Part shown: piece after piece, positions 2,167-53,467 of the stretch
How positions within the stretch are numbered: the first letter of the stretch is position 1
Layout: each line of letters starts with the position of its first letter
Assembly: GCF_007859635.1 (NCBI RefSeq)
Contig: NZ_CP042306.1
Location: 248,001-312,000 of the forward strand
DNA length: 64,000 nucleotides
Source of the DNA: Sphingomonas panacisoli
GTDB lineage: Bacteria > Pseudomonadota > Alphaproteobacteria > Sphingomonadales > Sphingomonadaceae
Direction of reading: 5' to 3'
Position numbers and translations under genes: made by a program
The notes under the pieces: generated by a model
What the model was told of the DNA's origin: nothing
Seen by the model: the letters and a program-made list of their open reading frames with translations, nothing else
The model's database searches: none

Positions 2167-2768
2167 GCTTTTATCTTGTCCTCAATCACAGGCACGAACG
2201 CCTTGCCGTCCCATAGACGCGCGGTGAAGGTACGCGATCCATCGGGGGCGACCGACCACGACCAGGTCAGGCTGTGGTCACCCGACTCGCCCTGCGCCGA
2301 CTTGTTCGCCGGATCAAGCGGCGTGCCCGCATTTTGCCCCGGCTTGCGGCACGACGCGCGGCGAACCAACGGTTGCGCGGGACGCGCGCGGGCGGCTTCC
2401 AACCCGTCGCCGCCATCGACGGTCCATTTCCAACCACCGTCGGGCTGCCTCACCCATACCGTCGTGAAATAACCGTCCGAGCCGTCGGGGCGTTTCCATC
2501 CGCCGGTGTTGACCGCGAGCTTCCCGTCGCACGACAGGTAGCTCGCGGTCGGCCACCAATCGATCACCTTGGGCGGATCCTTGCGGTCTTTCAGGAACTC
2601 GTGGGTGTTGGTCGGCTGCGGCACGAACATCACCGAATCGTCGGTCGACCATTTGCGGAACGCGGTCCACTGACCGATCGTCTTGGCGTCGGCGGCAAAG
2701 GCGCGCTCGGCATCGACCGGCATTTGCGGTGCGGCGGCGGCAGCGGCGAGCAAAAGAATCGGCAGCAT
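2163..2768 (-). CDS. Secreted protein of unknown function, 201 aa
   Basis: The first 14 or so residues are a short hydrophobic leader (LPILLLAAAAAAP), suggesting export. The mature part has the size and motif style of NTF2/SnoaL-like (DUF4440) folds: AERAFAADAKTIGQWTAFRKW near the start, then aromatic-rich strands such as GYFTTVWVRQPDGGWKW. I infer that fold from look only. The ATG is well placed behind a GGGAGGG ribosome site. It is the first gene of a two-gene unit with marC (4-base overlap). A near-perfect 29-bp dyad lies 16 bases upstream of the start, so it is probably controlled by a dedicated repressor or activator not encoded beside it. Confidence 0.7.
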   Translation of the reverse strand: MLPILLLAAAAAAPQMPVDAERAFAADAKTIGQWTAFRKWSTDDSVMFVPQPTNTHEFLKDRKDPPKVIDWWPTASYLSCDGKLAVNTGGWKRPDGSDGYFTTVWVRQPDGGWKWTVDGGDGLEAARARPAQPLVRRASCRKPGQNAGTPLDPANKSAQGESGDHSLTWSWSVAPDGSRTFTARLWDGKAFVPVIEDKIKA

Positions 2769-2783
2769 CTAACCCTCCCTAGA

Positions 2784-2812
2784 CGTATATAATACGACAC
2801 GTACTATATACG
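2784..2812 (-). promoter_or_regulatory. 29-bp near-perfect dyad, likely operator
   Basis: Outer arms CGTATATA and TATATACG are exact inverted repeats, inner TACG/CGTA blocks also pair, and only the centre and one pair of positions break the symmetry. The element also splits into two 11-bp palindromes, GTATATAATAC and GTACTATATAC, centred 16 bases apart. It is very AT-rich against a high-GC background and includes -10-like TATA stretches. It lies just upstream of the secreted gene/marC unit and 50 bases from the 3' end of folD. A dimeric TetR- or GntR-like regulator is a plausible reader, by inference. Confidence 0.6.
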
Positions 2813-2862
2813 CCGCCAAGGTCATGTCGATGACATCGCTGCCCGGCCGGAAACGCACCCCA

Positions 2863-3759
2863 TCACAGCGCATCCTTGTCATAAGGAACGCGCGCACGGC
2901 GATGCGCCGATACCAACGTGTTCCTGAGCAGAACCGCGATCGTCATCGGTCCGACGCCGCCCGGCACCGGCGTCACCGCGCCGGCGACCTGCATTGCGCC
3001 GGCGAAATCGACGTCGCCGACCAGCCGCCCGTTGCTGCCCTCGACCGGCGCGGCCTCGCGGTTGATGCCGACGTCGATCACCGTCGCGCCCGGCTTGATC
3101 CAGTCACCCTTGATCATCTCGGCTCGGCCGACCGCCGCTACGACGATGTCGGCACGACGCACGACGCTCGACAGATCCTTGGTCTTCGAGTGCGCGAGCG
3201 TGACGGTGCAGCTTTCCTTGGTCAGCAGCGCCGCCATCGGCTTGCCGACGATGTTCGACCGGCCGATCACGACGGCGTCGAGCCCCGCCAGATCGCCGAG
3301 CTGATCCTTGAGCAGCATCAGGCACCCCAGCGGCGTGCACGGCACGAAGCCGTAGAGCCCGGTTGCCAGCCGCCCGGCATTGACCGGGTGGAAGCCGTCA
3401 ACATCCTTGTCGGGGTCGATCCGCGTCGTCACCGCGCGCTCGTCGATATGGTCGGGAAGCGGCAGCTGGACGAGGATGCCGTCGATCCGGTCGTCGGCGT
3501 TGAGCGTGTCGATCAGCGCGAGCAATTCGTCCTGCGAGACGTCGGCGGACAGCTTGTGCTCGAAACTCCCCATCCCCGCGGCGACGGTCGCCTTATGCTT
3601 GGACCGCACATAGACGGCGGAGGCCGGGTCTTCGCCGACCAGCACCACCGCTAGACCGGGGGCGCGGCCCGCCGCTTCGTGGAAGGACGCGACCTGCGTC
3701 GCGATCCGTTCGCGCAATGCTGCCGCGAACGCTTTGCCGTCGATGATGCTAGCCGTCAT
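2863..3759 (-). CDS. folD: Bifunctional methylenetetrahydrofolate dehydrogenase/cyclohydrolase FolD
   Basis: 298 residues, full length for FolD, which interconverts methylene-, methenyl- and formyl-tetrahydrofolate in cytosolic one-carbon metabolism. Family motifs are clear: [19 protein letters not shown] with the catalytic Y and K near residue 50-56, GILVQLPLP near residue 95, the NADP-binding stretch [17 protein letters not shown] around residue 165, and [15 protein letters not shown] near the end. It lies 38 bases downstream of the yggT homologue on the same strand and is probably co-transcribed with it. Confidence 0.97.
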
Positions 3760-3797
3760 GCCTCGGCCCTTACGGTCAAGCGCATGACGGCGCTAGA

Positions 3798-4103
3798 TCA
3801 GAGCGCGCCCTGGCTCAGATACCAGGCAGCAATGTTCGGGATAACGATCCGCGACAGGATGCCGATGATCAGCAGCACGACGAGCGGCGACAGGTCGAGC
3901 GCGCCGAAATCGGGCATGATGCGCCGGATCGGGCGATAGAGCGGCTCGGTCATCCGCTGCAGCGCCAGCCAGATCGAACGGACGGTGTCGTGGTACGTGT
4001 TGATCACGTTGAACGCGATCAGCCACGACATGATCGCCTGAACGACGATGATCCACCAGATGATGTCGAGAATGACCTGAAGGATTTGCAATATCGTGAT
4101 CAA
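3798..4103 (-). CDS. YggT family membrane protein
   Basis: 101 residues with two hydrophobic segments separated by a basic loop. The loop and second span match the YggT family: PLYRPIRRIMPDFGALDLSPLVVLLII. YggT proteins are small inner-membrane proteins, linked in some bacteria to osmotic tolerance or division, with no established biochemical role. The start is taken as TTG, because GGAGAG lies six bases upstream and the family begins with such a hydrophobic N terminus. It precedes folD and follows argB on the same strand. Confidence 0.9.
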   Translation of the reverse strand: MITILQILQVILDIIWWIIVVQAIMSWLIAFNVINTYHDTVRSIWLALQRMTEPLYRPIRRIMPDFGALDLSPLVVLLIIGILSRIVIPNIAAWYLSQGAL

Positions 4104-4147
4104 GTGGCTCTCCGTGCGACCGGTGTATTAGATATATAGGACGGTAG

Positions 4148-5047
4148 TTACGCTCTTACCAGCGTACCGGCACCGCGCCGGGTGAATATTTCGAGCAGCA
4201 TCGCATGCGGCACGCGGCCGTCGAGGATGACGGCGGCCTCGACCCCGGCCTCTACCGCGGTGACGCAGGTATCGACCTTGGGAATCATCCCGCCCGAAAT
4301 CGTGCCGTCGGCCTTCATCGCCTCGATCCCCGCGCGGTCGAGGTCGGTTTGCAACTCACCCGCTTTGTTGAGCACGCCCGCGACGTCGGTCAGCAGGAAG
4401 AACCGCGTCGCCCCCAGCGCCCCGGCAATCGCGCCGGCCATCGTGTCGGCGTTGATGTTGTAAGTCTCGCCGTCTGCGCCCAGCGCCACGGGGGCGACAA
4501 TCGGAATGAACCCGTCCTTGGCGAGGTTGGTCAAGATCGTCGGATCGACCTTCACCGGTTCGCCGACGAAGCCGAGGTCGACATGACGCTCGATCCCCGA
4601 ATTGGGGTCGGGCTCGCGGCCATGCACCTTCTCGGCGATGACCAGGTTCGCGTCCTTGCCCGAAATGCCGACCGCGCGGCCGCCGAGCGCGGCGATCCAG
4701 CCGACGATTTCCTTGTTGATCTTGCCCGCCAGCACCATTTCCGCGACCTCGGCGGTGGCGGCGTCGGTGACGCGCAAGCCGCCGACGAAACTCGATTCGA
4801 CGCCGAGCCGCTTGAGCATCGCGCCGATCTGCGGCCCGCCGCCGTGGACGACCACCGGGTTGATGCCGACCGCCTTGAGCAACACGACGTCCTCGGCGAA
4901 GTCGCGCTGCGCCTCCGGATCGCCCATCGCGTGGCCGCCGTACTTCACGACGAAGGTCTGCCCGGCGTAACGCTGCAGATAGGGCAGCGCCTCGACGAGC
5001 GTTTCGGCCTTGGCGAGGAGTGCCGGCGAGGGGGCGTGGTCGGTCAT
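4148..5047 (-). CDS. argB: Acetylglutamate kinase
   Basis: ArgB phosphorylates N-acetylglutamate in the second step of arginine synthesis. From the chosen ATG the protein has 299 residues, the usual length. An upstream in-frame ATG would add 18 residues that run into the yhhQ gene and resemble nothing in the family. Visible motifs are [10 protein letters not shown] (phosphate binding), [10 protein letters not shown], the [15 protein letters not shown] substrate loop and [10 protein letters not shown] with the conserved lysine. It lies 10 bases downstream of the YhhQ-type transporter gene; no other arginine gene is present. Confidence 0.97.
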
Positions 5048-43140: not shown

Positions 43141-44667
43141 ATGTCATCGACCATCGCAGAACTCGCCCGTCGCCGCGAAGCCGCCAAGCTGGGCGGCGGC
43201 GAAAAACGCATCGCCGCGCAACACGCCAAGGGGAAGCTGACCGCGCGCGAGCGGCTCAGCGTCTTGCTCGACGAAGGATCGTTCGAGGAACTCGACATGT
43301 TCGTCGAGCATAACTGCGTCGATTTCGGAATGCAGGACACGGTCATTCCCGGCGACGGCGTGGTCACCGGAACCGGCACGATCAACGGCCGGCTGGTCTG
43401 CGTGTTCAGCCAGGATTTCACCGTGTTCGGCGGATCGCTGTCCGAGCGCCATGCGCAGAAGATCTGCAAGGTCATGGACCTGGCGATGAAGATCGGGGCG
43501 CCGGTCATCGGCTTGAACGACTCCGGCGGCGCGCGCATCCAGGAAGGCGTCGCGTCGCTCGGCGGCTATGCCGAAGTGTTTCAGCGCAACGTGCTGGCAT
43601 CGGGCGTCGTGCCGCAAATCAGCCTGATCATGGGGCCGTGCGCGGGCGGCGCGGTGTATTCGCCGGCGATGACCGACTTCATCTTCATGGTGAAGGATTC
43701 GAGCTACATGTTCGTCACGGGTCCCGACGTGGTGAAAACGGTGACCAATGAGGTCGTGACGCAAGAGGCTCTGGGCGGCGCGGTCACGCACACGACCAAG
43801 ACGAGCGTCGCCGACAATGCCTTCAACGACGATATCGAAGCGCTGCTCGCCGCGCGCGACTTCGTCGATTTTCTGCCGGCATCGAACCGCGAATCGGTGC
43901 CCGAGCGCCCGACCGCGGATCCGTGGGATCGCATCGAGAACAGCCTCGACACGCTGATCCCGGCATCGGCGAACCAGCCATACGACATGCACGAGCTGAT
44001 TCGGAAGACGGTAGACGAAGGCGATTTCTTCGAAGTGCAACCGGGCCATGCCGGCAACATCATCGTCGGCTTCGGGCGGATCGAGGGCAGGACGGTCGGC
44101 GTGGTCGCGAACCAGCCGATGGTGCTGGCCGGGGTGCTCGACATCAACTCCTCGAAAAAGGCCGCGCGCTTCGTCCGCTTCTGCGACGCGTTCGAGATTC
44201 CGATCGTGACCTTCGTCGATGTCCCCGGCTTCCTGCCCGGCACCGCGCAGGAGCATAACGGCATCATCAAACACGGCGCGAAGCTGCTATTCGCTTACGC
44301 CGAAGCGACGGTTCCCAAGATTACCGTCATCACCCGCAAGGCCTATGGCGGGGCGTATGACGTCATGGCGTCGAAGCATCTGCGCGGCGACTTGAACTAT
44401 GCCTGGCCGACCGCCGAGATCGCGGTGATGGGCGCGAAGGGCGCGGTCGAGATTATCTTCCGTGGGCGTACGCCCGAGGAAATCGCCGAACGAACCGCCG
44501 AGTACGAAGCCCGCTTCGCCAACCCGTTCGTGGCGGCGAGCAAGGGCTTCATCGACGAGGTGATCCAACCGCACTCGACTCGCCGCCGCATCGCGTTGGG
44601 CCTGCGCAAGCTACGCGGTAAGCAACTCGAGAATCCGTGGAAGAAGCACGACAATATCCCGCTGTGA
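43141..44667 (+). CDS. pccB: Propionyl-CoA carboxylase, carboxyltransferase (beta) subunit
   Basis: 508 residues; human and bacterial PccB are about 510-540. It transfers carboxyl from biotin to propionyl-CoA, giving (S)-methylmalonyl-CoA. Visible are the two crotonase-like halves: the acyl-CoA site [24 protein letters not shown] and [21 protein letters not shown] in the first, and [42 protein letters not shown] and [20 protein letters not shown] in the second. The start is ATG; a longer frame upstream is not supported. It opens the 10-kb propionate cluster, whose biotin-carrying partner is pccA at 50.4 kb. Confidence 0.95.
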
Positions 44668-44729
44668 CGAACTTTGCCGGCGCGCGTTGACCGGCTAGAA
44701 CACCGATACTCCAACCCGAAAGGTCGGCC

Positions 44730-45284
44730 ATGATCTCCATCCTCTCGCTACTGCTTCAGACCGCAGCCGCCCCGGCCCCTGCACCCGCACCCGCGCCTGC
44801 TGCTGCCCCGGTCGCGCCCTGGACCGTCGTCGTGCGACCCAAGACCGATCCGGCGATGACGACCACCGTCGTCAGCGCCCCGGCCAGCGACGGCAGCGGA
44901 CGACTGGTGGTCAAATGCGATTCGGGCGCGCAGCAGGTCGTGTCGGTTCAATTCCTCAGCAAAACCGCGCTTGGCGGCCCGCCCGACCGGCCGGTGACGC
45001 TGACGATTGACGGCGGCACGCCGATGGGCGCCAATTGGGAGTTCGTCGAAAAGGGCGCGTTCATTCGCGACGACATGGCGGTGACGACGATCACCGCCGC
45101 GCTGGCGACGAGCAAGGCGATCAAGCTGGCCACGACGACGGCGGCGGGTGTCGCGGTCAACGCGACCTTCGCCGGCCCGCCCTCGGCCGCGCCGATCACG
45201 AAGGTGCTCGCGGCATGCGGCTACACGCTCGGCACGCCGCCGGTCCGCGCGCCGCAGCCCGCCCCGACGCCCGCCGCGAAGTGA
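44730..45284 (+). CDS. Ala/Pro-rich secreted protein of unknown function, 184 aa
   Basis: A short hydrophobic start (ISILSLLLQTAAA) runs into an Ala/Pro linker, then about 140 residues with beta-type pattern (LVVKCDSGAQQVVSVQFLSKTALGG, MGANWEFVEKGAFIRDD). One cysteine lies in KCDSG and another in LAACGY near the end, so a disulfide is possible. I recognise no domain. Its stop overlaps the GTG of the epimerase gene (GTGA), so it is co-translated in the propionate cluster; no link to that pathway can be argued from sequence. Confidence 0.68.
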   Translation: MISILSLLLQTAAAPAPAPAPAPAAAPVAPWTVVVRPKTDPAMTTTVVSAPASDGSGRLVVKCDSGAQQVVSVQFLSKTALGGPPDRPVTLTIDGGTPMGANWEFVEKGAFIRDDMAVTTITAALATSKAIKLATTTAAGVAVNATFAGPPSAAPITKVLAACGYTLGTPPVRAPQPAPTPAAK

Positions 45285-45700
45285 AGCTCGGCCGGCTCAA
45301 CCATGTCGGGGTGGCGACGCCATCGATCGCCGACGCCATCCCCTATTGGCGCGACATGATGGGCGCGACCGCGATCGGCGAGCCGTTCGATCTGCCCGCG
45401 CAGGGGGTGAAGGTGTGCTTCATCGACACGCCCAACACGCAGATCGAGTTGATCGAGCCGTACGATGCAAGCTCGCCGATCGCTGCGTTCATCGCGAAGA
45501 ACCCGGCAGGCGGGCAGCATCATGTTTGTTACGAGGTGCCCGACATTTACGAAGCGAAGGCATGGTTCGAGGCGAAGGGCGCGAAGGTGCTCGGCGAACC
45601 GCGGATCGGGGCGCACGGCACGCCGATCTTCTTCGTCCACCCGCGCGACATGGGCGGTGTGCTGACCGAGTTCATGGAGACGCCGAAGGGCGACCACTGA
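45281..45700 (+). CDS. mce: Methylmalonyl-CoA epimerase
   Basis: 139 residues, a single glyoxalase-fold domain of the usual size. It converts (S)- to (R)-methylmalonyl-CoA, the substrate of the mutase. The metal ligands of the family are visible as LNHVGVAT (His), IELIEP (Glu), GGQHHVCYEVPD (His) and GVLTEFME (Glu). The start is GTG (position 45281), overlapping the upstream stop. The enoyl-CoA hydratase follows after 10 bases. Confidence 0.93.
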   Translation: MKLGRLNHVGVATPSIADAIPYWRDMMGATAIGEPFDLPAQGVKVCFIDTPNTQIELIEPYDASSPIAAFIAKNPAGGQHHVCYEVPDIYEAKAWFEAKGAKVLGEPRIGAHGTPIFFVHPRDMGGVLTEFMETPKGDH

Positions 45701-45710
45701 GGGGGATCGA

Positions 45711-46493
45711 ATGGCGTACGAGCATATCCTGACCGAGCGTCGCGGCGACGTGCTGGTCGTCACGCTCAACCGGCCCGATCGGCTGAACGCCGCACCGCCG
45801 GCGATGTTCGTCGAATTGCGCGCGGCGATCGCCGATCTCGGCGGTGCGCGTGCGGTGCTGGTAACGGGGGCGGGCCGGGCATTCTGTTCGGGCGCCGACG
45901 TCGGCGGCGGCGCGCTGGGGAGCGACGATCCCGGCAACGCGACCTACGCCGCGCTCACGCAGAGCTATAACCCGACGATGGCGGCGCTGGCGGATCTCGG
46001 CGTGCCGGTGGTCAGCGCCGTGCGCGGGCCGGCGGCCGGGATCGGGTGCAGCCTGGCGCTGGGTGCCGACTTCTGCGTCGCGAGCGAGGCCGCCTATTTC
46101 CTTCAGGCGTTCGTCAATATCGGGCTGGTCCCCGACGGCGGCGCCAGCTGGATGCTGCCCCGCCTGATCGGCAAGGCGCGCGCGACCGAGATGATGATGC
46201 TGGGCGAGCGCGTGCCGGCGACGAAGGCGCTGGAGTGGGGCATGATCCATCGCGTGGTGGCGGACGAGGCGCTCGATGCCGAAGCGTTCGCGCTGGCGGA
46301 GCGACTGGCGGCGGGGCCGACCGTCGCGCTGGGGCTGATGAAGCGCGGGCTCAACCATGCGTTCGAGGCCGGCTATGCGTCGGCGATGGAGCGCGAGGCC
46401 GAGAACCAGCGCGCCGCGCGCGGTACATCGGACTCGATGGAGGGCGGCATGGCGTTCCTCCAGAAGCGTAAGGCGGCGTTTAAGGGGGCATAG
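45711..46493 (+). CDS. Enoyl-CoA hydratase/isomerase family protein
   Basis: 260 residues, a single crotonase domain. The fold is read from VLVVTLNRPDRLNA, the oxyanion region GAGRAFCSGADVGGGALG, and VSAVRGPAAGIGCSLALGADFCVASEAAYFLQAFVNIGLVPDGGASWMLPRLIG. The PDGG stretch fits hydratases that lack one of the classical glutamates (the second position reads D), like PaaG-type enzymes, so the exact reaction is open. Located between mce and the mutase, so it probably helps feed branched or odd-chain acyl-CoA towards propionyl-CoA. Confidence 0.9.
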   Translation: MAYEHILTERRGDVLVVTLNRPDRLNAAPPAMFVELRAAIADLGGARAVLVTGAGRAFCSGADVGGGALGSDDPGNATYAALTQSYNPTMAALADLGVPVVSAVRGPAAGIGCSLALGADFCVASEAAYFLQAFVNIGLVPDGGASWMLPRLIGKARATEMMMLGERVPATKALEWGMIHRVVADEALDAEAFALAERLAAGPTVALGLMKRGLNHAFEAGYASAMEREAENQRAARGTSDSMEGGMAFLQKRKAAFKGA

Positions 46494-46528
46494 TGGCGTT
46501 TGCGTGCGGCCGGGCGTAAGGCACTGCG

Positions 46529-48667
46529 ATGACTGACAAGCCGACTTTGGACGACTGGCAAACGCTCGCTGCGAAGGAAGTGAAGGGCGCTGACCTGACG
46601 TGGCGGACGCCCGAGGGGATCGACGTCAAGCCGCTCTACACAGCTGCCGATGTCACGACCGATCCCGGCCTGCCGGGCTTCGCGCCGTTCACCCGCGGTG
46701 TGCGGGCATCGATGTACGCCGGGAGGCCGTGGACGATCCGCCAATATGCGGGCTTCTCGACCGCCGAAGCCTCCAACGCCTTCTATCGCCGCAACCTGGC
46801 GGCGGGGCAGAAAGGCCTCTCCGTCGCGTTCGACCTGGCGACCCACCGCGGTTACGACAGCGACCATCCGCGCGTGACTGGCGACGTCGGCAAGGCGGGG
46901 GTCGCGATCGACACGATCGACGACATGAAGATCCTGTTCGACGGTATCCCGCTCGATCAGATGTCGGTGTCGATGACGATGAACGGTGCGGTGATCCCGA
47001 TCCTCGCCTTCTTCATCGTCGCGGGCGAGGAACAGGGCGTGCCGATGGCGCAGCTCGACGGGACCATCCAGAACGACATCCTCAAGGAGTTCATGGTCCG
47101 CAACACGTATATCTATCCGCCCGAACCGAGCATGCGGATCATCTCGGACATCTTCGCCTTCACCAGCGCCAACATGCCGAAGTTCAACTCGATCTCGATC
47201 AGCGGCTATCACATGCAGGAAGCGGGGGCGACGCAGCTCCAGGAGCTCGCCTTCACCATCGCCGACGGCATGGAATATGTGAAATACGGCGTCGCCTCCG
47301 GGCTCGACATCGACAAGTTCGCCGGGCGACTCTCCTTCTTCTTCGCGATCGGCATGAACTTCTTCATGGAAGTCGCGAAGCTGCGCGCGGCGCGCGTGCT
47401 GTGGCATCGCGTGATGACGCAGCTCGGCGCGCAGGACGAGCGCAGCAAGATGCTGCGCACGCATTGCCAGACGTCGGGCGTCAGCCTCACCGAGCAAGAC
47501 CCGTACAACAACGTCATGCGTACGACGATCGAGGCGATGGCGGCGATGCTGGGAGGTACGCAGAGCCTTCACACCAACGCGCTCGACGAAGCCATCGCGC
47601 TGCCGACCGATTTCTCCGCCCGGATCGCGCGCAACACGCAGATCGTCATCCAGGAAGAGACCGGGATGACCAAGGTCGTCGATCCCCTGGGCGGTTCCTA
47701 TTATGTCGAGAGCCTGACCGAGCAACTGGTCGACGGCGCGTGGGAGATCATCGAGCGGGTCGAGCGCGAGGGCGGCATGGCGAAAGCGGTCGCGGCGGGC
47801 TGGCCCAAGGCGATGATCGAGGAAGCGTCCGCCGCGCGCGCCGCGCGGGTCGATCGCGGCGAGGACGTGATCGTCGGCGTCAACAAATACCGCAAGGCCG
47901 ACGAGGACCCGATCGACATCCTCGACGTTGACAACCACGCCGTTCGAGAAGCGCAGATCGCGCGCATCCGCAAGGTCAAGGTGGGCCGTGACGAGGCGGC
48001 GTGCCAGGCGGCGCTGGAGGCATTGAAAGCCGGCGCGGCGGGCAAGGCGAACCTGTTGGAGCTCGCGGTCGACTGCGCCCGTCAGCGCGCCACGCTCGGC
48101 GAAATCTCGTCGGCGATGGAGGCAGGCTTCGGCCGCTACGCGACGGTGCCGACTCCGGTGAAAGGCATCTACGGCGGCGCGTACGAGAACGACGCGCGCT
48201 GGGACAATCTCGTCGCCGGCGTCGCTGCGACCGAGCGCCGGCTGGGCCGCAAGCCGCGCATGCTCGTCGCCAAGATGGGCCAGGACGGCCATGATCGCGG
48301 CGCCAATCTGGTGAGCAGCATGTTCGGCGATCTTGGCTTCGAGGTGGTCCCGGGCCCGCTGTTCCAGACGCCACGGGAAGCCGCCGTCCTCGCGCTCGAA
48401 AGCGACGTCGACGTGGTCGGCGCGTCCAGCCTTGCCGCCGGGCACAAGACGCTGATTCCCGAACTGATCGGCCATCTGCGCGACGCCGGCCGCGCCGACA
48501 TCAAGGTCATCGCCGGCGGTGTGATCCCGGCGCAGGATTACGACTTCCTGCACGACGCCGGGGTCCAGGCGATTTTCGGCCCTGGCACCAACCTGATCAA
48601 GGCAGCGGAAGACGTATTGCGGCTGCTCGGTCACAACATGCCGCCCGAAAGCGAGGCGGCGGAATAA
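46529..48667 (+). CDS. scpA: Methylmalonyl-CoA mutase, adenosylcobalamin-dependent
   Basis: 712 residues, single-chain form with both domains. The N-terminal TIM barrel binds the substrate: [59 protein letters not shown]. The C-terminal cobalamin domain has [25 protein letters not shown], including the D-x-H-x2-G lower ligand histidine, then [14 protein letters not shown] and [19 protein letters not shown]. It rearranges (R)-methylmalonyl-CoA to succinyl-CoA. The cofactor-loading adenosyltransferase is at 12.1 kb. No MeaB-type chaperone gene is adjacent. Confidence 0.97.
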
Positions 48668-48668
48668 C

Positions 48669-48902
48669 ATGCCGACGGTGCTCAGGATCGGCGCATTCCG
48701 ACTCTATTTCTACAGCCACGAACCCAACGAACCGCCGCATATTCACGTCGATCGCGGTGAGGCGACGATCAAGGTCTGGCTCGACGGCATCGAAGTCGCA
48801 AAGAGCCGCGGCTTTCGCGCGCATGAGATTGGTGGCATCGTCGCCGTGGTCGAAGCACATCGCGAACAACTGCTGGAGGCATGGTATGAATATTTCGGCT
48901 AA
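48669..48902 (+). CDS. DUF4160 family protein
   Basis: 77 residues, beginning two bases after the mutase stop. It matches DUF4160: VLRIGAFRLYFYSHEPNEPPHIHVDRGEATIKVWLDG, with the conserved H-PPHIHV stretch. The family often stands directly before DUF2442, and the pair has been proposed as toxin-antitoxin-like, without firm biochemistry. The downstream DUF2442 gene overlaps it by 17 bases. The two conserved histidines near residue 30 might bind metal, by inference. Confidence 0.83.
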   Translation: MPTVLRIGAFRLYFYSHEPNEPPHIHVDRGEATIKVWLDGIEVAKSRGFRAHEIGGIVAVVEAHREQLLEAWYEYFG

Positions 48903-49149
48903 GGTGACCGATGAGCGCGTGCTCGACGTCCGTTTCGACGATGCCAGCCTAATCGTCGATTTGATGGACGGCCGCACGATCTCGGTGCCGTTGACGTGGT
49001 ATCCGCGCCTGTCGAAGGCGACGTCTGCGCAACGTGCCAAGTGGGAGAAAGCAGGCGCAGGCTACGGTATCCATTGGCCGGAAATCGACGAGGATTTGAG
49101 CACCGAGGGCTTGCTGCGTGGCGCGCCAGCCCCGGCGAAAGCAGCTTAA
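48886..49149 (+). CDS. DUF2442 family protein
   Basis: 87 residues from an ATG inside the preceding gene (17-base overlap). The DUF2442 pattern is seen in [67 protein letters not shown]. The family is compact, with a possible DNA-binding or partner-binding role when paired with DUF4160. It ends four bases before the best start of bioB. Confidence 0.83.
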
Positions 49150-49153
49150 GTAC

Positions 49154-50140
49154 GTGACTCGCAACGACTGGACGCGCGACGACATCGCGAAACTCTTCGA
49201 CCTGCCTTTCACCGAACTCGTGTTCCGCGCGGCCGAGGTGCATCGCCAGCATCACGCGGCGAACGAGGTTCAGCTGTCGACCCTCCTGTCGATCAAGACC
49301 GGCGGCTGTCCCGAGGATTGCGGCTATTGCTCGCAATCGTCGCACCATGAGACGGGCCTAAAGGCGACCAAATTGATGGACGTCCGCGCGGTGCTGCAGG
49401 CGGCGGCGCAGGCGCGCGACAACGGCTCGACGCGCTTTTGCATGGGGGCGGCGTGGCGCAATCCCAAGGATAAGGACATCCCCGCGCTGGCGGAGATGGT
49501 ACGCGGCGTGCGCCAGATGGGGATGGAAACCTGCATGACGCTCGGCATGCTGACGCCGGGCCAGGCGGCGGCGCTGGGCGAGGCTGGGCTCGATTACTAC
49601 AACCATAATATCGACACCTCGCCGGAGAATTACGCCAACGTCATTTCGACGCGGTCGTTCGATGAGCGGATCGAGACGCTGGAGAATGTCCGCGACGCCG
49701 GGATCAACGTGTGCTGCGGCGGGATCGTAGGTATGGGCGAGACGCGGAGCGACCGTGTCGGGTTCATCCACGCGCTGGCCAGCCTGCCGGTGCATCCGGA
49801 GAGCGTGCCGATCAACGCCTTGGTGCCGGTCAAGGGGACGGTGCTGGGCGACATGCTCGCCGACACGCCGCTTGCGAAAATTGACGATATCGAGTTCGTC
49901 CGCACGGTCGCGGTCGCGCGGATCACGATGCCGGGGAGCATGGTGCGACTGAGCGCGGGCCGCGAAAGCATGAGCGACGCGACGCAGGCATTGTGCTTCC
50001 TGGCAGGCGCGAATTCGATCTTCACCGGCGACAAGCTGCTGACCGCGGGCAATGCCGGCGAGGACAAGGACGCTGCTTTGTTCGCGAAGCTCGGGCTGGC
50101 ACCGATGGCGGCGGAGCAGCGCGTTGTGGAGGCGGTGTGA
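49154..50140 (+). CDS. bioB: Biotin synthase
   Basis: 328 residues from the GTG at 49154, which starts [19 protein letters not shown] like other BioB proteins. An earlier GTG (49118) would overlap the DUF2442 gene and gives no match. BioB is a radical-SAM enzyme inserting sulfur into dethiobiotin. The radical-SAM cluster is [16 protein letters not shown], and further motifs are [31 protein letters not shown] and the C-terminal [17 protein letters not shown]. It lies in the propionate cluster, just before the biotin-carrying pccA; bioA, bioD and bioF are not in the window. Confidence 0.96.
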
Positions 50141-50385
50141 GCGAAAAGCCCGTCTTCCGCGGTCCCTCAATCGTCGAATGTTCGATCGCGTGTGCGGTTC
50201 TGGCGGTAATCGCGTTCGCCGTCGTGCGAGGATCGGCCATTTGTCCTGTCAATGAGCCGCCACGTACGGAATGTGTTGCTGTGGCGAACGATATCGCGCT
50301 TCGCAGCGCCACGACCGTCACCATAATTTTCGCGCTGATCCTGCTTCTCGGGACGCTCCTGAGATCTTTCGTAAAGAGACGTTGA
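50137..50385 (+). CDS. Small two-span membrane protein, unknown function
   Basis: 82 residues with two hydrophobic segments ([19 protein letters not shown] and [18 protein letters not shown]) and a cysteine-containing loop ([15 protein letters not shown]) that probably faces the periplasm. It is translationally packed: GTG overlaps the bioB stop by four bases, and its own TGA overlaps the pccA ATG by one base (TGATG). No family is recognised. The position between the biotin enzyme and its target carboxylase could be chance or could mark a membrane accessory. Confidence 0.72.
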
Positions 50386-52397
50386 TGTTCAAGAAAATCC
50401 TGGTCGCCAATCGCGGCGAGATTGCGTGCCGCGTGATGCGCACCGCCAAGAAGATGGGACTTGCGACGGTCGCGGTCTATTCCGACGCCGACGCGCGCAG
50501 CCCGCACGTGCTGATGGCCGACGAAGCGGTGCGGCTCGGGCCGCCGCCGGCGGGTGAGAGCTACCTGCTCGCCGAACTGATCCTCGACGCGGCCAAGATC
50601 ACCGGGGCTGACTGCATCCATCCGGGCTACGGTTTTCTGTCGGAGCGCGAGAGTTTCGCGCGCGCATGTGCCGACGCCGGGATCGCGTTCGTCGGCCCGC
50701 CGCCCAACGCCATCGCCGCGATGGGCGACAAGATCGAATCGAAAAAGCTGGCCAAGGCCGCGGGCGTCAACGTCGTCCCCGGCTTCCTGGGCGAGATCGC
50801 CGACACCGACGAAGCGGTCAGGATCGCCGGCGACATCGGCTATCCGGTGATGATGAAGGCCAGTGCCGGCGGCGGCGGCAAGGGCATGCGGCTGGCCTAT
50901 AGCGAGCAGGACGTCCGCGAAGGGTTCGAGGCGACCAAGCGCGAGGGCCTCGCGTCGTTCGGCGACGATCGCGTGTTCATCGAGAAGTTCATCGAAAGCC
51001 CGCGCCACATCGAAATCCAGGTGATGGGCGACCAGCACGGCAACATCCTCTACCTCGGCGAGCGCGAATGCTCGGTGCAGCGCCGCCACCAGAAGGTCGT
51101 CGAGGAAGCGCCGTCGCCGTTCGTCACGCCGGCGATGCGCAAGGCGATGGGTGAGCAGGCCGTCGCGCTGGCCCGGGCGGTCGGATACTATTCCGCTGGC
51201 ACGGTCGAGCTGATCGTGTCGGGCGCGGACACCACCGGCCAGGGCTTCTACTTCCTCGAAATGAACACCCGGCTGCAGGTCGAGCATCCGGTGACCGAGG
51301 CGATCACCGGGCTCGATCTGGTCGAACTGATGATCCGCGTCGCGGCGGGCGAGAAATTGCCGCTGACGCAGGATCAGGTGCAGCTCGACGGCTGGGCGAT
51401 CGAGAACCGCGTCTATGCGGAGGACCCGTATCGCGGGTTCCTGCCCAGCATCGGTCGCCTCGTCCGCTACGACCCACCTGCGAGCGAGGACACACCCTAT
51501 GGCCAGGCGGCGACGGAGGCTTACGTCCGCGTCGATGACGGTGTCGCCGAGGGCGGCGAGGTGTCGATGTTCTACGACCCGATGATCGCCAAGCTGATCA
51601 CCTGGGCGCCGACCCGCGAGGCGGCAATCGATGAGCAGATCGCCGCGCTCGATGCCTTCGAGATCGACGGACCCGGCAACAATCTCGATTTCCTGTCGGC
51701 ACTCATGCAGCACCCACGCTTCCGCGACGGCGCGCTGACGACCGGATTCATCGCCGAAGAATATCCGGAAGGCTTCCACGGCGCACCGGCATCGTCCGAA
51801 TTGCTGAAGTCGCTCGCCGCGATCGCCGCCTTTGCCGCGACGGCGGAGGCAGACCGCGCGCGGCGAATCGACGGCCAGCTCGGCAAGCGCTTGCGCCCGC
51901 CCTCGGCCTGGACGGTGCGGATCGACGGGGTGGATCACGACGTGTCGATTTCGACCGACGGCGTGACGGTCGATGGCGCGGCGCACGCGATTGCGCTTGA
52001 GTACACTCCGGGCGACCGAGTCGTGAACGCCGAACTGGCCGATAGCGACCTGACCGTTCGCATCGCCCGCACGCGCACCGGCTTCAAGCTGACCGCGCGC
52101 GGTGCCAGCCATGTCGCGCGGGTATTGCCGACTGGTGTCGCCGCGTTCGCGCATCACTTGATCGAGAAGGTCCCGCCCGATCTTTCCAAGTTCCTCATCG
52201 CGCCGATGCCGGGCTTGCTCGTGCGGCTCGACGTCGGCGTCGGCGACGAAGTCCAGCCGGGCCAGCCGCTCGCGGTGGTCGAGGCGATGAAGATGGAGAA
52301 CATCCTGCGCGCGGAGAAGGCCGCGACGGTCAAGTCGGTAGAGGCCAAGGCCGGCGACAGCCTGGCGGTCGATCAGGTCATCCTGGAACTCGAATGA
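50385..52397 (+). CDS. pccA: Propionyl-CoA carboxylase, biotin-containing (alpha) subunit
   Basis: 670 residues, the PccA length. Biotin carboxylase domain first: ILVANRGEIACRVMRTAKKMG, the ATP loop MKASAGGGGKGMR, EKFIESPRHIEIQVMGD, GTVELIVSG and the catalytic EMNTRLQVEHPVTEAITGLDLVE. A linker/BT domain follows from residue 450 to 590. The C-terminal BCCP domain has the biotinyl lysine in VVEAMKMEN. It fixes bicarbonate onto biotin with ATP, then PccB passes it to propionyl-CoA. Note the GDPD gene overlaps its stop by four bases. Confidence 0.96.
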   Translation: MFKKILVANRGEIACRVMRTAKKMGLATVAVYSDADARSPHVLMADEAVRLGPPPAGESYLLAELILDAAKITGADCIHPGYGFLSERESFARACADAGIAFVGPPPNAIAAMGDKIESKKLAKAAGVNVVPGFLGEIADTDEAVRIAGDIGYPVMMKASAGGGGKGMRLAYSEQDVREGFEATKREGLASFGDDRVFIEKFIESPRHIEIQVMGDQHGNILYLGERECSVQRRHQKVVEEAPSPFVTPAMRKAMGEQAVALARAVGYYSAGTVELIVSGADTTGQGFYFLEMNTRLQVEHPVTEAITGLDLVELMIRVAAGEKLPLTQDQVQLDGWAIENRVYAEDPYRGFLPSIGRLVRYDPPASEDTPYGQAATEAYVRVDDGVAEGGEVSMFYDPMIAKLITWAPTREAAIDEQIAALDAFEIDGPGNNLDFLSALMQHPRFRDGALTTGFIAEEYPEGFHGAPASSELLKSLAAIAAFAATAEADRARRIDGQLGKRLRPPSAWTVRIDGVDHDVSISTDGVTVDGAAHAIALEYTPGDRVVNAELADSDLTVRIARTRTGFKLTARGASHVARVLPTGVAAFAHHLIEKVPPDLSKFLIAPMPGLLVRLDVGVGDEVQPGQPLAVVEAMKMENILRAEKAATVKSVEAKAGDSLAVDQVILELE

Positions 52398-53467
52398 CCG
52401 CGTTGCGCGCCTTCGCGATCGCGGCGCTCGCCATCGCGCTGGCGTCGCCGGGCGTGGCAGGGCAGAGTACGCGCATGGCATCGCTCTCACCCCCCATCGT
52501 CATCGGTCACCGCGGCGCGAGCGGCGAAAGACCCGAGCACACGCTGGCGAGCTACGAACTCGCGATCGACGAGGGCGCCGATTTTATCGAACCCGATTTG
52601 GTGCTGACCAAGGACAATGTCTTCGTCGCGCGGCACGAGAACGACATTACCGGCACCACCGACGTCGCCGACCATCCCGAATTCGCTGGCCGCAAGACGA
52701 CCAAGACGATCGACGGCGTCGCGCATACCGGCTGGTTCACCGAGGATTTCACGCTCGCCGAACTGAAGACGCTGCGCGCGAAGGAACGCCTGCCGCAACT
52801 GCGTCCCGACAATGCGAAATATGACGGCCTCTACACGATCCCGACACTGGCCGAGGTGATCGCGCTGGCGAAGAAACGGTCGCAGGAATTGGGCCGCACG
52901 ATCGGCATCTATCCCGAAACCAAGCACCCGACCTATTTCGCGTCGATCGGCCTGCCGATGGAAAAGCATCTGGTCGCCGAGCTGAAGGCGGCGGGCTGGG
53001 ATTCGGCCGACGCGCCGGTGTTCATCCAGAGCTTCGAGGTGAACAACCTCAAGCTGCTCCATACGCTGACCAAGAATCGTCTGATCCAGCTGATGGACTC
53101 GAGCGGCGGCCCCGCCGACAATGCGACGCCGAGCTATGCGGCGATGATCACGCCCGAGGGCCTGAGGGCGGTCGCGGCCTATGCCTGGGGGATCGGGCCG
53201 AACAAGGACATGGTCGATACGGGTGAAGGCACGCCGACGACCTTGGTCGCCGATGCGCACAAGGCTGGCCTGCGCGTCCATGTCTGGACCTTCCGCGCCG
53301 AGAATTTCTTCCTCCCCGCCAGCCTCAAGCGCGGTGCCGATCCCAAGGGTCATGGCGACGTGGATACGGCGATCCGACGCCAGCTTGCGGCGGGGATTGA
53401 TGGATTTTTCACCGATTTTCCGCTAATTGGCGCGACCGCGCGCGAGGCTTTCCGCGCCGGCAAGTAG
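52394..53467 (+). CDS. Glycerophosphodiester phosphodiesterase (GlpQ-like), exported
   Basis: 357 residues. A signal peptide (FAIAALAIALASPGVAG) is followed by the GDPD TIM barrel: VIGHRGASGERPEHTLASYELAIDEGADFIEPDLVLTKDNVFVARHEND, in which the catalytic HRG and E-x-D and the second histidine are all present, then YPETKHPTYFAS and WTFRAENFFLP. This periplasmic type releases glycerol-3-phosphate from deacylated phospholipids. Overlaps pccA by four bases (ATGA) but has no evident metabolic link to it. Confidence 0.93.
   Translation: MTALRAFAIAALAIALASPGVAGQSTRMASLSPPIVIGHRGASGERPEHTLASYELAIDEGADFIEPDLVLTKDNVFVARHENDITGTTDVADHPEFAGRKTTKTIDGVAHTGWFTEDFTLAELKTLRAKERLPQLRPDNAKYDGLYTIPTLAEVIALAKKRSQELGRTIGIYPETKHPTYFASIGLPMEKHLVAELKAAGWDSADAPVFIQSFEVNNLKLLHTLTKNRLIQLMDSSGGPADNATPSYAAMITPEGLRAVAAYAWGIGPNKDMVDTGEGTPTTLVADAHKAGLRVHVWTFRAENFFLPASLKRGADPKGHGDVDTAIRRQLAAGIDGFFTDFPLIGATAREAFRAGK

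Follow-up and report, generated by a model that had tools for sequence, protein, structure and literature searches.

Why should a small gene pair of toxin-antitoxin appearance lie inside a metabolic operon, directly behind the gene of a core enzyme? This question is raised by a locus of Sphingomonas panacisoli contained in the 64,000-nucleotide stretch of DNA that we analysed (hereafter the window), in which all the genes concerned are on the + strand. The gene for methylmalonyl-CoA mutase (mcm, 46529..48667; 712 aa; PF01642 784.6 bits, NF006944 1203.1 bits) is the upstream host gene. It ends with a TAA codon at 48665-48667, and the single base 48668 separates it from the ATG at 48669 that opens the gene for a DUF4160 protein, the putative toxin (48669..48902; 77 aa), whose frame is intact (PF13711 67 bits, cut-off 23). 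The gene for a DUF2442 protein, the putative antitoxin (48886..49149; 87 aa; PF10387 87.8 bits, cut-off 23.9), starts with the ATG at 48886 and overlaps the former by 17 bases (48886..48902), as read from the sequence. The biotin synthase gene bioB follows (49154..50140; TIGR00433 392.9 bits for the open reading frame from 49118); by eye, it starts with GTG 49154, four bases past the DUF2442 stop, or with the in-frame GTG 49118. The conserved block mcm-bioB-pccA is closed by pccA, coding for the biotin-carrying subunit of propionyl-CoA carboxylase (50385..52397, ATG 50385), with matches to PF02786, PF18140 and PF00364 obtained with a Pfam query that began nine bases upstream of this ATG, in frame. 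An 82-residue open reading frame at 50137-50385, which overlaps both the end of bioB at its stop codon and the start of pccA, has no Pfam match and looks membrane-bound by eye; relatives have other small genes in that gap.

The initial annotation had placed the pair directly after the mutase gene with a 17-base overlap and proposed that it rides on the metabolic operon. Both statements hold, the distance to the mutase stop being exactly one base and the operon neighbours being mcm, bioB and pccA. The last codons of the mutase gene, GAGGCGGCGGAATAA, can serve as a candidate ribosome-binding site for DUF4160, as judged by eye, and a GGAGG motif at 48875-48879, within the toxin LLEAW codons, lies just 5' of the antitoxin ATG, also by eye. 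A consensus scan, which is a weak test for this organism, detected no promoter-like site between 48200 and bioB, and only one base separates the mutase stop from the toxin start where a promoter of the pair's own would be sought; such a promoter could also lie within mcm.

What kind of system is this? The PF13711 and PF10387 thresholds are both passed by adjacent, overlapping genes on the same strand, in agreement with the toxin-antitoxin-like nature that had been proposed. PF10387 was the sole Pfam match of the window DUF2442 protein, and no DNA-binding domain was matched. The S. panacisoli genome harbours a single copy of each family. The window DUF4160 protein scores 30.4 bits with the DhiT equivalog model NF048015 of NCBIfam, for a cut-off of 100, and because it misses this threshold we file the pair as a probable relative of the DUF4160-toxin/DUF2442-antitoxin kind rather than as DhiT itself. 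The function of such pairs, which the initial annotation took to be undescribed, has in fact been shown in Dickeya and is supported in Thermus. Overproduction of the toxin of Dickeya dadantii dhiTA is reported to inhibit the growth of Dickeya and Escherichia coli, and production of both proteins together is reported not to (PMC8198452). In Thermus, a plasmid devoid of the second open reading frame reportedly gave no transformants, and one devoid of the first did (PMC12724237, 2025). According to a survey table, one marine genome also carries a DUF4160/DUF2442 pair (PMC12654330). Many single-chain DUF4160-DUF2442 proteins were encountered as well (P0002-P0055 and P0101), with junctions that vary among those read; P0101 additionally bears a helix-turn-helix domain.

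We then asked how the pair is distributed in a sample of 201 genomes of the genus, that of S. panacisoli included. DUF4160 was found in 63 of them and DUF2442 in 60; the mutase is present in 192 (E<=1e-100) and bioB in 198 (E<=1e-60). The pair or its antitoxin is located inside the mcm-bioB-pccA operon, behind mcm or bioB, in 20 genomes. Among these operon copies, 18 have DUF4160 beside mcm or bioB, the window being one of them, and two (G122 and G192) have DUF2442 alone. For the 14 DUF4160 carriers without a listed mcm or bioB place, 15 stretches of about 6 kb around DUF4160 showed no mcm, bioB or pccA. Operon placement in the genus is conserved but patchy. High-scoring DUF4160 proteins also occur in genomes without a DUF2442 match (L004, L005, L007, L009 and L011, in G060, G189, G198, G061 and G139, respectively) and may act with a different partner; the DUF4160 gene of G061 has an nrdB-like neighbour at a distance of about 1.3 kb (L230).

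The operon was compared between 17 other DUF4160 operon loci, 23 hand-chosen pairless operon loci, and those of G122 and G192. The gene order mcm-bioB-pair-pccA was found in 16 of the 17 pair loci, and mcm-pair-bioB-pccA in G028 and in the window. The mcm-bioB gap ranges from -1 to 1356 nt and reaches at least 200 nt in 21 of 39 genomes (those up to G060 with both genes on one contig). Elsewhere it contains genes for LprI, a YdcZ-type exporter, a Cys/Met PLP enzyme, a redoxin, an esterase or a PIN/Rv0623-type pair. Since its length varies and its small-gene contents differ between loci, this gap is a spot with turnover of small genes. The mutase of the genus comes in two length types, those of L032, L044 and L046 being about 45 residues longer than that of the window over the same aligned part. 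The idea that the mutase tail was borrowed from bioB along with the pair was discarded, as EAAE-like ends are common in mutase and bioB genes, whether the pair is present or absent. We also rejected a swap of an mcm-plus-pair block between the window and G028: from 44001 to 52500, their DNA identity per 250-nt step varies between 66 and 94%, with no switch at the pair.

These data bear on the proposal of the initial annotation that the pair controls, or is controlled by, mutase or biotin synthase expression, i.e., that it is a metabolic control module. Its embedding in the operon in several genera, the clade-specific character of the operon copies and the low dN/dS values (see below for all three) would suit such a role. 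Against it, the operon contains the pair or its antitoxin in only 20 of the 201 genomes, for 192 with mcm and 198 with bioB. Moreover, in G163, the closest genome by its mutase (96%), the corresponding gap has an open reading frame without Pfam match, and in G012 it is just 2 nt long. Unrelated core genes also host related pairs, as described next, and the duplicated gene ends found behind some of them indicate a transfer route. As this route would explain the position of the pair, control of propionate or biotin metabolism is unnecessary as an explanation; we regard it as very unlikely.

A scan of one genome per species, from which the best 80 of at least 538 loci were taken, revealed the order mcm-pair-bioB in Porphyrobacter, Erythrobacter and Altererythrobacter, and mcm-pair-pccA, with bioB absent, in Novosphingobium. 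The conservation of position in sphingomonads, suggested as a check by the initial annotation, is thus found in other genera in addition to the 20 genomes of the genus sample. A tree was built with 104 rows, corresponding to 111 distinct loci minus one short reading and six divergent ones. All 43 operon-linked rows fall on one side of a branch, with 1 change compared with a mean of 33 after shuffling. Support for this clade was an SH-aLRT of 82 in a quick tree; in a careful tree, the bootstrap was 78, the SH-aLRT 80, and the clade occurred in 77% of the bootstrap trees, with a bootstrap that had not settled. The operon-linked copies probably form a single group, with moderate support. Its sister group comprises nine rows whose hosts are thiC or phaC. 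Of 42 operon rows, 36 have the toxin start within -2 to +2 nt of the stop of the upstream gene. Where the toxin is open, almost every operon row shows the 17-nt overlap of toxin and antitoxin. This overlap was rejected as a family-wide trait, as rows from other phyla mostly have overlaps of 26 or 29 nt.

Across the order, 32 of 396 genomes had a DUF2442 match (E<=1e-20), and 30 loci were analysed. Of these, 26 are preceded in the same orientation by one of six genes, thiC (11), mcm (5), bioB (5), nrdB (2), sdhA (2) or phaC (1), a host list that was compiled post hoc, after other loci had been read. For the 23 loci with the toxin also matched, its start is -1 to 126 nt past the stop of the gene in 22 cases and 700 nt past it in one. 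The loci outside the six-gene count are L178, with pccA directly downstream, L181 (the same as L116), with the pair behind thiC plus a recombinase-like open reading frame, L183, in which the pair overlaps a PhaC-like end, and L191. Hosts also include metH and gyrB, as named by Pfam, and in 40 of the 111 loci the upstream gene is none of bioB, mcm, thiC and phaC. Pairs were seen behind gyrB in L084, metH in L119 and L143, sdhA in L127 and nrdB in L176. The initial annotation had named random placement of the pair elsewhere as a finding that would speak against its reading; the placement elsewhere is non-random.

BioB, ThiC, the mutase, MetH and NrdB are radical or cobalamin enzymes. Their recurrence as hosts could mean that the pair is functionally tied to enzymes of this type, a reading that sdhA, phaC and gyrB do not fit. 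The host list was noticed post hoc, with no control for the expected frequency of such genes, and we consider this tie highly improbable.

If the pairs travel, their arrival may leave traces. We searched for a second copy of the 3' end of the upstream gene within 3 kb after the pair and retained matches that were collinear with the gene end and at least about 45 nt long. Such scars were found in 13 loci, 10 of 24 thiC rows (L098, L113, L117, L120, L122, L173, L177, L182, L190 and L192) and 3 of 42 mcm/bioB rows (L105 for mcm, L111 and L039 for bioB). The toxin is broken or absent in the thiC scar loci L113, L117 and L122. No scar follows the pair in the window, which is counted once among the 42 mcm/bioB rows, and none was found in the three phaC rows or in six rows at metH, sdhA, gyrB, nrdB and glmM. 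Pairless controls gave 0 of 23 for the operon, where the only matches were nucleotide ones of at most 27 bases and a reverse match of 10 residues, and 0 of 17 for thiC, all these control stretches being shorter than 3 kb (operon gaps of up to 1289 nt, thiC stretches of 0.5-1.5 kb). The thiC control set initially comprised 19 rows, of which two carried the pair, one of them with a scar, leaving 17.

The duplicate of L111 is 170 nt long, 90% identical and runs complete to the stop. Those of L105 and L190 cover 112 nt at 83% and 322 nt at 84%, respectively, and that of L039 50 nt at 80% or 99 nt at 69%. To determine which of the two ends came from outside, we compared them with those of relatives, leaving out L105, which had no close relative. 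In G403 (L190), G340 gives the closest match to both the thiC body (780 nt, 93.7%) and the displaced end (91.6%), and the in-gene end is 86.3% identical to that of G340 and up to 87.9% to those of genus members. This points fairly clearly to a native body, an imported end that came with the pair, and a displaced native end. The reverse reading of the G403 ends was rejected once body and ends had been compared over identical stretches; for the ends of G340 itself, the comparison decides neither way. With bioB of L111, identities to a congener are 80.0% for the displaced end, 75.7% for the in-gene end and 85.2% for the body, which weakly suggests the same direction as in G403; relative to the other rows, the differences are slight and of either sign. 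In L173, the displaced thiC end is followed by fragments that by eye resemble the end of a second DUF4160 gene and the start of a DUF2442 gene, as if pairs had arrived twice.

Location at 3' ends of core genes is also what would be expected if the pairs were remnants of integrase-driven islands that insert at such sites, and integrase genes were indeed found near 2 of the 111 pairs. In L139, from an alphaproteobacterial MAG, the pair has an integrase gene (2696-4003; PF00589 94.4 bits) 780 nt upstream. In L116, from Stakelama pacifica, the weaker recombinase-like open reading frame at 3445-4626, between thiC and the pair, scores 19.9 bits with PF00589, below the cut-off of 27.1. Islands may thus bring in some of the pairs. 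However, used as queries, the two integrases had no further match (E<=1e-6) in the other loci of the 111 or in the 64-kb window, in a search that misses unrelated integrases and covers short flanks. The duplicated ends begin 49 to 315 nt before the stop, depending on the locus, with only L098 and L173 sharing a start. Varying start points speak against a fixed attachment site, although decay can blur them. We therefore view integrase-driven islands as an unlikely general origin of the pairs.

Both proteins are under purifying selection. For 27 operon loci chosen for open pairs, with overlap codons omitted and only locus pairs with dS under 2 considered, the median dN/dS values (NG86) are 0.084 for DUF2442 and 0.145 for DUF4160, compared with 0.232 for mcm, 0.224 for bioB and 0.228 for pccA. 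Ten DUF4160 residues are invariant in the 45-row alignment A3, which includes the window: P2, R11, S16, H24, H26, D28, W37, L38, G48 and W72. This conservation suggests that H24, H26 and D28 might form the active site. A confident structure model of the DUF4160 protein (pLDDT 93.8, pTM 0.83) gave no clear PDB match, and a DUF2442 relative has a solved structure (PDB 3k8r, E 1.2e-8).

The two genes do not decay alike. With DUF4160 and DUF2442 searched independently in the genus genomes, neither family serving as bait, six of the 20 operon copies have a broken or missing toxin, and every one of the 20 has an open antitoxin frame. A frameshift affects the toxin gene of G028, G076 and G106, an internal TGA interrupts that of G114, and no DUF4160 was matched in the operon copies of G122 and G192. 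Six cases against none give p = 0.03 (sign test, hand arithmetic), with assembly errors a possible explanation for some of the frameshifts. Toxin-first decay would be as expected for a toxin-antitoxin pair. A PIN-domain/Rv0623-type pair lies between bioB and a complete DUF4160/DUF2442 pair in G143 (L044, 2895-3514), and a PIN/Rv0623-like pair was recognized by eye ahead of the orphan DUF2442 gene in G192 (L094, about 4250-5000); in these loci, the toxin of one toxin-antitoxin pair may have given way to another such pair.

Retention of the antitoxin where the toxin is broken or gone, together with the strong purifying selection, could alternatively reflect domestication, with the antitoxin or both proteins doing a housekeeping job and toxicity lost or secondary. 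Two open-frame toxins, both from genomes absent from A3, are altered at A3-invariant residues (H26Q in G008 and W72G in G016), in line with this idea. The patchy presence in the genus and the open toxin frame with its invariant residues, in the window as in many relatives, argue against it, and the broken toxins may be recent. Domestication is in our view quite unlikely.

We thus favour, at slightly better than even odds, the explanation that the window harbours an intact type II toxin-antitoxin pair, toxin first and without a visible promoter, which is probably transcribed and translated within the mcm-bioB-pccA operon and was spread by recombination. Several of its elements are apparent from the DNA itself, namely the gene identities, the overlap, the one-base spacing to the mutase gene, the single operon group with its moderate support, the pairs behind other core genes and the duplicated ends. 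In this explanation, one transcript from the operon promoter would cover mcm, the pair, bioB and pccA, and the overlap would couple the translation of toxin and antitoxin. DUF2442 would bind and block DUF4160 in an inert complex, and free DUF4160 would slow growth upon arrest of transcription or loss of the antitoxin. Steady transcription of the core operon would supply the antitoxin and substitute for autoregulation, and the pair would persist mainly because loss of the antitoxin in the presence of the toxin is harmful. Recombination inside the upstream gene would spread it, with import of a foreign 3' end plus the pair, the old 3' end being pushed downstream.

Some observations weigh against this explanation. 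The window has no scar, and few rows of the operon group carry one (3 of 42). The imported-end test is fairly clear at one thiC locus and weak at one bioB locus, and the operon clade has moderate support. The window protein, whose toxicity is proposed by analogy with its family, stays below the DhiT equivalog cut-off, and neither single deletion of the Thermus pair is reported to have had an effect in E. coli (PMC12724237).

More broadly, and far more tentatively, the pairs of Sphingomonadales might be promoterless units that dock at the 3' ends of a few core metabolic genes, move with a foreign 3' end as a homology arm, and punish silencing or loss of the operon by tying the antitoxin supply to core-gene transcription; we hold this generalization to be possible, at odds well below even. 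Docking as proposed for the window pair would offer chromosomal toxin-antitoxin pairs a concrete way of spreading that needs neither transposase nor promoter. It would also explain how such a pair can resemble a member of a metabolic operon, which calls for caution in deducing function from operon position. Related operons with an intact pair, with a lost toxin or with an empty site represent natural experiments.

The closest described system is DhiTA of Dickeya dadantii 3937. As in the window, the DUF4160 toxin gene comes first and the DUF2442 antitoxin gene second, on one strand with a short overlap (PMC8198452). The listed distance is -3 bp for DhiTA, compared with an overlap of 17 bp in the window, and dhiTA is reported to have its own promoter, repressed by its products, whereas none is visible for the window pair (PMC8198452, 2021). 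The plasmid persistence enhancing module of Thermus has the same order, DUF4160 then DUF2442, and toxin-antitoxin behaviour was reported in Thermus; however, it is found on plasmids, downstream of a replication gene (PMC12724237), and the pair of the window resides in a metabolic operon on the chromosome. For the docking of the pair, the nearest likeness is the displacement of T6SS effector-immunity genes in Vibrio cholerae, for which the authors' proposed model, homology-facilitated illegitimate recombination, has a shape matching that of the scars. In that model, an incoming toxin/immunity unit is anchored by upstream homology, old 3' material is shifted downstream and orphan immunity genes remain (PMC5361080). 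The Vibrio site is a secretion-system effector cluster (PMC5361080), whereas in the present case housekeeping metabolic genes serve as anchors, for a unit that is an intracellular pair. Recombination of this type has also been reported to occur, with low efficiency, during E. coli conjugation (PMC3240628). Relative to these systems, the kind of pair is already known; what is new here is its apparently promoterless placement behind core genes, together with the displaced gene ends.
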